Assembly: GCA_001776195.1 (NCBI GenBank)
Contig: MEZY01000038.1
Coordinates: 4,568 to 51,565 of the forward strand
Source: Candidatus Berkelbacteria bacterium RIFOXYA2_FULL_43_10
Lineage (GTDB): Bacteria > Patescibacteriota > UBA1384 > XYA2-FULL-43-10
DNA: 46,998 nucleotides
Reading direction: 5' to 3'
In this document: positions 12,185 through 37,562 of the stretch, one piece after another
Position numbering within the stretch: the first letter of the stretch is position 1
Layout: every line of letters starts with the position of its first letter
The notes under the pieces: model-generated
What the model saw: the letters and a program-made list of their open reading frames with translations, nothing else
Told to the model about the DNA's origin: nothing
The model's database searches: none
Program-made: the position numbers and the translations under genes

Positions 12185-12721
12185 TCACGGTGTCGGTGGT
12201 GTCGGCGCGAACGTCTCGAGAAACCCTTCCGGAAAGCGGTAGATCTCGAAGTGCTCGGAGGTAAGCTCGTGTGCGGTCGCCCAACGCGTGGAGTGACTGA
12301 CTACAGCATCGAGCTTCATGCCCCTGCCGATCAATTTCCAGTACTCGCGATGAGTTGCGATGACGCGGTTGGTTGTGTTGCGAACGTTGAAGCACGGGGC
12401 GACCGCACTGTCGGATACCGCGCCCTCAGTATCCACGTATGCCATGCGCGCATACGCAAGATCTATTCCGGCGATGCTGAAGAGCACTATGTAGCGCACA
12501 TCCTCTCCCCCAGTATCACGGCTACCAGTGGAGGCGTTGGACGCCGCCAACAGTTGATCGCGCCACGTACGGAACGCGATGTATCGGAGATTCCGCTCAA
12601 CCCAGAGACGAGGGCGCTCATCGCCCACCGTCTGTGGCTGAAGGGGCTTGGACAGTGTCCGGAGTATCACGCTCAGCTCCGGGTTTTCCCACATGAACCG
12701 GATGTAGTTCTCCCACTTCAT
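12185..12721 (-). CDS. GC-rich cassette 3: soluble protein of unknown function
   Basis: A 178-residue protein I do not recognise. It begins MKWENYIRFMWENPELSV and ends in a Pro/Thr tail (APTPPTP). The middle reads as mixed alpha/beta with strand-like LRYIAFRTW and VRYIVLFSIAGIDLAYARM; there is no signal or membrane segment and no obvious catalytic motif. The ORF extends upstream to 12796, but its promoter -10 lies at 12784-12789 inside that extension, so the start must be further in; the ATG at 12721 is preceded by GGTGG. Composition is GC-rich compared with neighbours. Transcribed alone, with promoter and terminator. Confidence 0.65.
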   Translation of the reverse strand: MKWENYIRFMWENPELSVILRTLSKPLQPQTVGDERPRLWVERNLRYIAFRTWRDQLLAASNASTGSRDTGGEDVRYIVLFSIAGIDLAYARMAYVDTEGAVSDSAVAPCFNVRNTTNRVIATHREYWKLIGRGMKLDAVVSHSTRWATAHELTSEHFEIYRFPEGFLETFAPTPPTP

Positions 12722-12783
12722 CTTGTCCACCGCTTTCTGCCATGTAGGCAGGGGATCCGGAGGATATACCAGCCGGTAGTGAG

Positions 12784-12812
12784 AATATAACATCAATACG
12801 ATAAATTGTCAA
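12784..12812 (-). promoter_or_regulatory. sigma-70 promoter of GC-rich cassette 3
   Basis: TTGACA (12807-12812) and TATATT (12784-12789) with a 17-bp spacer on the minus strand. Confidence 0.85.
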
Positions 12813-12884: not shown

Positions 12885-12959
12885 GCCAGCGTAGCTCAAT
12901 GGTAGAGCAACTGTTTTGTAAACAGTAGGTTATGGGTTCAAATCCCTTCGCTGGCTCCA
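12885..12959 (+). tRNA. tRNA-Thr(TGT)
   Basis: Complete 75-nt cloverleaf: acceptor GCCAGCG/CGCTGGC, anticodon stem ACTGT/ACAGT with loop TTTGTAA (anticodon TGT), T-arm ATGGG/CCCTT with a wobble, encoded CCA. Confidence 0.95.
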
Positions 12960-12969
12960 GGGATTATTT

Positions 12970-13056
12970 GCTGAGATAGCGAAGCGGTCAAACGCGGCAG
13001 ACTGTAAATCTGCTGGCCTTGTGCCTTCGCAGGTTCGAATCCTGCTCTCAGCACCA
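12970..13056 (+). tRNA. tRNA-Tyr(GTA)
   Basis: An 87-nt class II tRNA: acceptor GCTGAGA/TCTCAGC, anticodon stem GCAGA/TCTGC with loop CTGTAAA (anticodon GTA), long variable arm with GGC/GCC, T-arm GCAGG/CCTGC, encoded CCA. It follows tRNA-Thr(TGT) after ten bases. Confidence 0.95.
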
Positions 13057-13095: not shown

Positions 13096-13291
13096 GCCCA
13101 CGTAGCTCAGTTGGTAGACCTGCCCGCCGAAGTGCCGATATAGCTCAGCTGGTAGAGCGCATCCATGGTAAGGATGAGGTCTCGGGTTCGATTCCCGATG
13201 TCGGCTCCACGAAGGCGGGGCAACTCTCCGCCAAAGGCGGACAGGCATGGTAAGGAGTAGGTCAGCAGTTCAACTCTGCTCGTGGGCTCCA
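13096..13291 (+). pseudogene. tRNA-Thr(GGT) interrupted by repeats and a second tRNA
   Basis: The 5' part (GCCCACG, TA, GCTC, AGTTGGTA, GA at 13096-13118) and the 3' part (loop ATGGTAA, GGAGT, T-arm AGCAG-TTCAACT-CTGCT, CGTGGGC, T, CCA at about 13246-13291) belong to one tRNA-Thr with a perfect acceptor stem. The sequence between them includes a complete tRNA-Thr(GGT) at 13134-13209 plus GC-rich palindrome pieces (CCTGCCCGCCGAAG before, GCGGGG and CCGCCAAAGGCGGACAGG after). GCAACTC at 13219-13225 looks like a leftover of the D-stem/anticodon-stem strand, so there may have been two insertions. Unless spliced, it is non-functional. Confidence 0.75.
13134..13209 (+). tRNA. tRNA-Thr(GGT), nested
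   Basis: Complete 76-nt cloverleaf: acceptor GCCGATA/TGTCGGC, D-arm GCTC/GAGC, anticodon stem CATCC/GGATG with loop ATGGTAA (anticodon GGT), T-arm TCGGG/CCCGA, encoded CCA. It lies inside another tRNA-Thr(GGT) and is flanked by the direct repeat GAAG. Confidence 0.95.
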
Positions 13292-13403: not shown

Positions 13404-13571
13404 ATGGCAAAAGATGCAAGAGAAATCGTCGCGCTCGAATGTGAGAGCTGTAAAAGCAGAAACTACCACACTGAAAAAAGAGTCAAAGGCCAAGATGTCG
13501 TAAAGCGACTTGAGTTTTTGAAATACTGCAAAAAATGCAAAAAACGAACAGCGCACAAAGAATCAAAGTAA
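13404..13571 (+). CDS. rpmG: 50S ribosomal protein bL33
   Basis: A 55-residue L33 starting MAKDAREIVALECESCKS and continuing NYHTEKRVK, with two CxxC pairs (CESC and CKKC) of the zinc-binding form and the usual LEFLKYCKKCKKRTAHKE ending. AAAGGATC precedes the ATG at good spacing. It sits among tRNA genes, just before tRNA-Trp; in many bacteria rpmG, tRNA-Trp, secE and nusG are linked, but here secE-nusG lies about 23 kb away at 36669. Confidence 0.95.
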   Translation: MAKDAREIVALECESCKSRNYHTEKRVKGQDVVKRLEFLKYCKKCKKRTAHKESK

Positions 13572-13740: not shown

Positions 13741-13904
13741 GGGGTATCGCATAACGGTTATTATGGCGGTCTCCAATCCAGCACAATAATGACATAGGGA
13801 AGTAGCTCAATTGGTAGAGTATCGGTCTCCAAAACCGACGGTTGTGGGTTCGAGCCCCACCTTCCCTGCCAAATTGTGCGGGACGACTCCTCTATACCCT
13901 GCCA
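13741..13904 (+). pseudogene. degenerate tRNA-Trp-like gene with a nested tRNA-Trp
   Basis: GGGGTAT at 13741-13747 pairs with ATACCCT at 13894-13900 over seven positions (G1-U72 wobble), followed by G and CCA. A D-arm (CATA/TATG) and an anticodon loop CTCCAAT (CCA anticodon) follow the 5' end. The anticodon 3' stem and the T-arm are degenerate. A complete tRNA-Trp (13796-13871) lies inside, flanked by the inverted repeat GCACAAT/ATTGTGC. I read the outer gene as a disrupted tRNA-Trp. Confidence 0.55.
13796..13871 (+). tRNA. tRNA-Trp(CCA), nested
   Basis: Complete 76-nt cloverleaf: acceptor AGGGAAG/CTTCCCT, D-arm GCTC/GAGT, anticodon stem TCGGT/ACCGA with loop CTCCAAA (anticodon CCA), T-arm GTGGG/CCCAC, discriminator G, encoded CCA. 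Confidence 0.95.
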
Positions 13905-37511: not shown

Positions 37512-37562
37512 ACACACACAGAATTATTACACAGTCCGCCTGCTGGCGGAGGGCACAGAAGC
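37512..37562 (+). repeat. stop-associated ACACACACAG repeat with inserted GC palindrome (after nusG)
   Basis: ACACACACAGAATTATTACACAG is interrupted by TCCGCCTGCTGGCGGA at about 37534-37550 and resumes as GGGCACAGAAG. The GC palindrome therefore appears inserted into the older repeat. Confidence 0.7.

Follow-up and report, generated by a model that had tools for sequence, protein, structure and literature searches.

A tRNA-Thr(GGU) gene nested within another tRNA-Thr(GGU) gene suggests replacement of tRNA genes from within by palindrome-bounded cassettes in Patescibacteria

The window analyzed in this work, i.e., the whole stretch of 46,998 nt from Candidatus Berkelbacteria bacterium RIFOXYA2_FULL_43_10, carries at 13096-13291 an outer tRNA-Thr(GGU) gene that is cut by two inserts, with a second tRNA-Thr(GGU) gene nested within it. 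Such a nesting had been claimed in a preliminary description of this DNA and is confirmed here: the inner gene was called by both ARAGORN and Infernal, and the outer one is present in three pieces. As interrupted, the outer gene was called by neither program in the window. The locus and its surroundings include the following features:

12885-12959, + strand: tRNA-Thr(UGU), gene 1 of the tRNA cluster (ARAGORN, Infernal)
12970-13056, + strand: tRNA-Tyr(GUA), gene 2 of the cluster (ARAGORN, Infernal)
13096-13118, + strand: 5′ piece of the outer tRNA-Thr(GGU) (5′ strand of the acceptor, 5′ strand of the D stem and D loop, to GGTAGA), same sequence as the beginning of the uninterrupted gene in genome G010
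13119-13128, + strand: left arm of the palindrome, CCTGCCCGCC, start of insert 1; same arm in most of the 47 cassettes collected and in empty palindromes
13129-13133, + strand: left linker GAAGT (from the sequence, compared with the linkers of other cassettes)
13134-13209, + strand: inner tRNA-Thr(GGU), intact, with encoded CCA (ARAGORN; Infernal, 67.2 bits; genome inventory)
13210-13219, + strand: right arm of the palindrome, CGAAGGCGGG, end of insert 1; same right end in the empty palindrome CCTGCCCGCCGTAGCTTTAGCGAAGGCGGG of the same genome (C14)
13220-13226, + strand: middle piece of the outer tRNA, GCAACTC (end of the D stem, base 26 and the greater part of the anticodon-stem 5′ strand), matching G010 once joined
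13227-13245, + strand: insert 2, second palindrome, TCCGCCAAAGGCGGACAGG, in the anticodon stem (from the sequence)
13246-13291, + strand: 3′ piece of the outer tRNA (last stem base, anticodon loop ATGGTAA with GGU, variable loop, T arm, 3′ strand of the acceptor and CCA); the joined tRNA has one mismatch to G010
13404-13571, + strand: downstream gene of ribosomal protein bL33 (Pfam PF00471, E 6.9e-15)
13796-13871, + strand: tRNA-Trp(CCA), in the same conserved neighbourhood (ARAGORN, Infernal, relatives)

Insert 1 (101 nt, 13119-13219) lies in the D arm, on the 3′ strand of the D stem (GA^GC), and has the order CCTGCCCGCC-GAAGT-[inner tRNA]-CGAAGGCGGG. Its tRNA portion represents 76 of its 101 nt and it contains no integrase gene. 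Insert 2 (19 nt) is a palindrome located in the 5′ strand of the anticodon stem. The preliminary description had placed palindrome pieces and an intact tRNA in the D-arm/anticodon region. The borders of both inserts are clean, without possible sliding or any target-site duplication, and no direct repeat that could be an attachment core was found at the ends of either. The Rfam scan of the window at gathering scores revealed only tRNAs, without any ribozyme core or intron family. Insert 1 belongs to what we call here nested-tRNA cassettes, i.e., an intact tRNA framed by an arm of the CCTGYCCGCC type and its inverted partner (the right arm being here a variant), in a host tRNA of the same isotype and direction (here, the D arm of a tRNA-Thr(GGU)). 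The RNA fold of the whole 196 nt is stable compared to shuffled sequences (z -3.0); since its minimum-energy form mixes strands of the inner and outer tRNAs, it was not counted as evidence. The promoter scan detected no match on the plus strand within the cassette; the cluster is preceded by a weak match only. As the leader within the cassette is only 5 nt long, the inner gene must use the promoter of the cluster. Two other observations concern the window. A 203-aa ORF adjoining the tRNA cluster (12185-12796, - strand) has no Pfam match and its start shows a strong match to a sigma-70-like promoter on the same strand (TTGACA-17-TATATT, 12812-12784). A G+C-rich palindrome, TCCGCCTGCTGGCGGA, is also found at 37536-37560, with no tRNA called by ARAGORN nearby.

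Once the inserts are removed, the joined outer pieces form a perfect 76-nt cloverleaf with the anticodon GGU, which bears out the earlier statement that the outer tRNA is otherwise sound (acceptor, T-arm, CCA and anticodon). A comparison of the locus with relatives had also been proposed in order to look for an uninterrupted outer tRNA. This is what is found in G010, which belongs to the same order: its tRNA-Thr(GGU), the only one in the cluster, is uninterrupted, is identical to the joined outer tRNA at 75 of 76 positions and sits in the same Thr-Tyr-Thr-Trp tRNA cluster. Relatives have a single uninterrupted tRNA-Thr(GGU) gene in a cluster of tRNA-Thr(UGU), tRNA-Tyr and tRNA-Trp genes, and the order of the cluster is kept on both sides. 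By sequence comparison, the outer gene is thus the native resident of the locus. The inner gene shows ~74% identity with the outer one (57/77), and its nearest relative (91% identity) is a gene from another family of the class. The acceptor stems of the two genes have different sequences yet pairing is kept in both, which indicates that both were once working tRNAs and that they have separate descent. A tandem duplication of the same gene in the window is ruled out by these differences. The inner gene is the sole intact tRNA-Thr(GGU) gene in the inventory of this 960-kb genome (37 tRNA matches); it should be noted that our tRNA inventories were built from searches and fetched stretches and not from a whole-genome scan.

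The same arrangement was found in many other genomes. In total, 47 distinct nested cassettes (at least 46 besides that of the window) were collected, all from the phylum of the window as far as identified. Their tRNAs belong to nine isotypes: Thr (three anticodons), Arg (four anticodons), Ala, Val, Gly, Leu, Ile, Cys and Pro. When the isotype of the interrupted gene was assigned by aligning its flanks to 313 tRNAs, outer and inner isotypes were the same for 40 of the 47 cassettes, whereas 100,000 shuffles of the labels gave 13.8 matches on average and never more than 25. Most of the seven mismatches still show the right anticodon by eye, their outer genes being damaged or located beside another tRNA. 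Inner and outer genes also have the same direction in 45 of the 47 cassettes, the two exceptions being one truncated locus and another whose intact neighbour lies on the opposite strand. Insertions are located in the D arm in 23 cases (GGTAGA^GC, GGTTA^GAGC); the others are mostly in the anticodon loop (34^35, 35^36 or 37^38) and one is in the T loop (L106).

These elements were searched for in several ways. The scan of the GTDB genome collection with a D-loop motif followed by CTGYCCGCC retrieved 35 stretches. About half of them are tRNAs interrupted by a cassette, nearly all from Patescibacteria (Kerfeldbacteria, Moraniibacteriota, Taylorbacteria, Falkowbacteria, Gottesmanbacteria, Kuenenbacteria and Doudnabacteria), two having no lineage given; the matches from other phyla result from chance or correspond to other kinds of interruption. 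In 380 genomes of the phylum of the window, the pattern CCTGYCCGCC-N85..115-CAGGCGGG had 33 matches in 22 genomes, of which 31 have a tRNA between the arms, and the reversed control had two matches. Because of its variant right arm, the cassette of the window is missed by this strict pattern and these counts are therefore lower bounds. In a denser sample of one class, the pattern was found in 11 of 49 genomes. The mismatches between arms (T.G and C.A) are partly imposed by the search pattern and are not an independent finding. Cassettes carrying different isotypes have linkers in common. In G377, the genome that is the richest in cassettes, none of the anticodons of the five nested inner tRNAs is present in a second copy among the inventoried tRNAs (a subset of 44 matches). 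No tRNA-loaded cassette was seen outside tRNA genes. The pattern had at least 120 matches in viral contigs, and none among the matches listed has a tRNA between the arms.

Empty forms of the palindrome (CCTGCCCGCC-N4..34-GGCAGGCGGG) are present in 19 of the 380 genomes, with up to 11 near-identical copies per genome, and the reversed pattern has no match in the same 380 genomes. Most of them are located outside tRNA genes. Being dispersed, multi-copy, near-identical and devoid of coding capacity, these empty forms have the features of small mobile palindromic repeats. The genome of the window itself carries two empty variants, CCTGCCCGCCGTAGCTTTAGCGAAGGCGGG at C14 and a close likeness at C56, and the arms of the C14 copy are exactly the two arms of the cassette of the window. 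Since empty palindromes sharing these ends are scattered as repeats and one copy from the same genome has the arms of the window, the cassette can be described as a dispersed palindrome of ordinary appearance whose loop contains a tRNA. The C14 copy (L079, near 2369) overlaps the 5′ end of a tRNA-Gly(UCC) gene, the last bases of the palindrome doubling as acceptor strand. The clearest empty palindrome within a tRNA gene (L331, G267:C5) is inserted in the anticodon loop of a tRNA-Cys gene, and an intact tRNA-Cys gene is found ~230 bp downstream; in this case, the replacement lies next to the broken gene instead of being nested in it. Further empty palindromes are located in tRNA genes at L091 and L106. 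A targeting of hairpin loops by empty palindromes was ruled out, since base pairing between the flanks is not better for 29 insertions than for control positions in their vicinity (combined p 0.76). A Y1 transposase (PF01797) was also considered as a possible mover. It is encoded by 14 of the 22 genomes harbouring the cassette pattern, compared to 177 of the 380 genomes, and is absent from G377; the association is not clear.

The outer halves can be rejoined into a tRNA in ~17 of 43 loci, and the anticodon is then almost always the same. The remaining loci have outer genes that are truncated, mutated or struck by further palindromes. In one locus from Falkowbacteria (L098, 3836 onward), a tRNA-Thr is triply nested, with a cassette inside the tRNA of another cassette. 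Another locus (L143) has two right arms, and in L141 one site is occupied by both an empty and a loaded palindrome, side by side. In a genome from the order of the window (G008), an intact tRNA-Thr(GGU) gene is followed by a worn right arm, GGCAATCGGC, and then by a ruined 3′ half. As far as can be read from the succession of these remnants, this locus shows a late decay stage of the nested arrangement.

Our preferred reading, to which we give a probability of about 0.78, is a palindrome-bounded replacement of a tRNA gene from within, the outer gene being dead and the inner one working from the operon of the outer. A short mobile palindrome with a complete tRNA-Thr(GGU) in its loop, coming from another lineage, would have inserted in the D arm of the resident gene; this foreign origin is inferred. 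The resident gene would now be dead, the second palindrome also breaking its anticodon stem, a loss of function that is likewise deduced rather than observed. The inner gene would be transcribed together with the outer one from the promoter of the cluster and its tRNA would be released by ordinary RNase P and 3′ processing, which is an inference in the absence of expression data. The inner tRNA would be the only GGU threonine tRNA of the cell. With time, the outer halves would decay and the inner gene would stay as the new resident. An insertion delivering a working replacement had been suggested by the preliminary description. It finds support in the uninterrupted outer gene of relatives, in the status of the inner gene as sole intact tRNA-Thr(GGU), in the recurrence with matched isotypes for nine amino acids and in the decay of many outer genes; that palindrome and tRNA arrived in one event is inferred and has not been shown. 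Some points also speak against replacement. No enzyme was identified. If the cassettes were freely moving, loaded ones would be expected outside tRNA genes, where none was seen. Furthermore, the outer gene is here perfect save for its inserts, which a recent event and a conserved function predict equally.

The outer tRNA could remain functional by RNA processing, the insert being an intron and the halves being ligated, so that one locus would give two tRNAs. The clean borders of both inserts, the perfect joined tRNA in the window and the rejoining of outer halves in other loci would be consistent with splicing, as would the location of some insertions at 37^38, the canonical intron position; the palindrome arms could also keep the halves together. 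However, most outer genes have been wrecked by truncation, mutation or further palindromes, whereas the exons of a spliced intron would be expected to remain able to form a functional tRNA in all carriers. In addition, RtcB (PF01139) has no match in this genome, which is 92.5% complete (controls positive in 9 of 14), insertion sites vary (D arm, 34^35, 35^36, 37^38, T loop), also between isotypes, and no Rfam intron family matches the window. Splicing also leaves the matched isotype unexplained. This alternative, which the preliminary description had mentioned, is thus unsupported and we consider it as very improbable. The lack of a detected RtcB, the free decay of outer genes and the variety of sites rather indicate that the locus of the window is a replacement caught soon after the event. 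An assembly or amplification artefact fusing two tRNA genes could also be invoked, as the genome is a draft of 58 contigs without available reads and palindromes can cause chimeras. Nevertheless, more than 20 genomes obtained by different projects share this architecture, with its arms and linkers, its isotype matching and its orderly decay, and relatives have the same cluster order on either side of the locus. Even without a check of reads, this independent recurrence makes an assembly error very unlikely.

How the cassette came to be in a gene of its own type is less clear. An empty palindrome could have entered a tRNA gene, the insertion being tolerated thanks to a second copy, and a tRNA of the same type could have come later into its loop, giving the same end product. 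The empty palindromes with the same ends found in tRNA genes (L331, L091 and L106) and the confinement of loaded cassettes to tRNA genes, the empty ones being mostly elsewhere, would agree with such a succession. However, no known process puts a tRNA gene so precisely into the loop of a palindrome, and the linkers common to different isotypes look as if the cassette were one unit; this scenario is a real possibility, if short of an even chance. Alternatively, the cassette could move as one unit into any tRNA gene, only matched insertions surviving because the struck tRNA is essential. This would be in line with the conserved arms and linkers around different tRNAs, the inner copies being the sole intact gene and the triple nesting of L098. 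Nevertheless, loaded copies should then be common outside tRNA genes, where none was found, and many nested tRNAs with C34 anticodons, which are maybe dispensable, match nonetheless. We regard this explanation as rather unlikely. Were the survival of matched insertions the only factor, unmatched loaded cassettes would be expected in neutral DNA, where none was seen. Assembly of the cassette in place, or guidance by the homology between inner and outer tRNAs, would account for the matching of types as well as for the constancy of direction. Replacement from within could even reflect a homology-guided system of this phylum, by which a cassette would find a gene of its own type, insert in the same orientation in a hairpin arm, kill it and take its promoter, repeatedly and for many isotypes. 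This extension is speculative and, at this stage, we doubt it more than we believe it.

Integrative elements and prophages attach at tRNA genes and resupply the lost tRNA sequence, so that the host survives. They carry an integrase and restore the 3′ end of the tRNA through a duplicated core. The cassette similarly strikes a tRNA gene and supplies the lost tRNA but, unlike these elements, it has neither core duplication nor integrase and provides a whole second tRNA in ~100 nt. Small mobile palindromic repeats include REP elements with Y1 transposases, MITEs and Rickettsia palindromic elements. The empty forms resemble them, being short, dispersed, near-identical and without genes of their own; unlike for REP elements, the presence of a Y1 transposase shows no clear link with the cassette. 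To our knowledge, no small palindromic repeat carries a tRNA or sits in a tRNA of the same type. In archaea, tRNAs have introns in the D arm and anticodon loop that are mobile between tRNAs, and split or permuted tRNAs with bulge-helix-bulge motifs are known (PMC10714607, PMC3978253). The interruptions of the D arm and anticodon loop and the G+C-rich helix at the junction are common to both systems. However, the cassette is bacterial and holds a full tRNA of the same type, its outer halves often decay and no RtcB was found here. Bacteria from the Candidate Phyla Radiation harbour group I and II introns as mobile inserts in 16S and 23S rRNA genes (PMC10714607). These are also mobile inserts in RNA genes from the same bacterial group; unlike them, the insert described here is a tRNA framed by 10-nt arms, and no ribozyme was matched in the window.

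Neither nested tRNA genes nor palindrome-tRNA cassettes were found to be described in the open-access literature searched, which leaves out preprints and most subscription journals. The parts are of known kinds, namely small palindromic repeats and tRNA-targeting elements. Their combination, a tRNA within a palindrome nested in the gene of the same isotype that it replaces, is apparently undescribed and would be categorically new within the limits of this literature. Vertical descent and duplication are the usual explanations for the evolution of essential tRNA genes. In the present case, a very short mobile palindrome seems to have exchanged essential, single-copy tRNAs from within, on many occasions and for nine or more amino acids. 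If true, this would be a concrete route for the turnover of tRNA genes in ultra-small genomes and a new class of mobile cassettes, paying their way by replacing the gene that they break. How the cassette always ends in a tRNA of its own type becomes testable. It should also be emphasized for tRNA annotation that tRNA finders miss the outer gene.

Other remnants of tRNA genes were observed. In the genome of the window, the tRNA-Thr(CGU) gene (G000:C28:9353-9446; L080, L003) is directly followed by GGCAATT-GGCGGGCAGG-TAAAG. This sequence resembles a right arm and the first bases of a decayed outer tRNA-Thr(CGU), and probably represents a second, older replacement in the same genome. In L117, L100 and L067, the anticodon arm or the T arm of outer or remnant tRNAs is exactly swapped for a G+C-rich palindrome of similar length. 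Finally, in L073 (G043, near 1267), a copy of the 5′ end of an intact tRNA-Thr(GGU) gene is located upstream of this gene. Its D arm is now a perfect inverted repeat, GCTCAGTTGGT-ggcggctacgcc-ACCAACTGAGC-like, and this copy is another kind of tRNA fossil.
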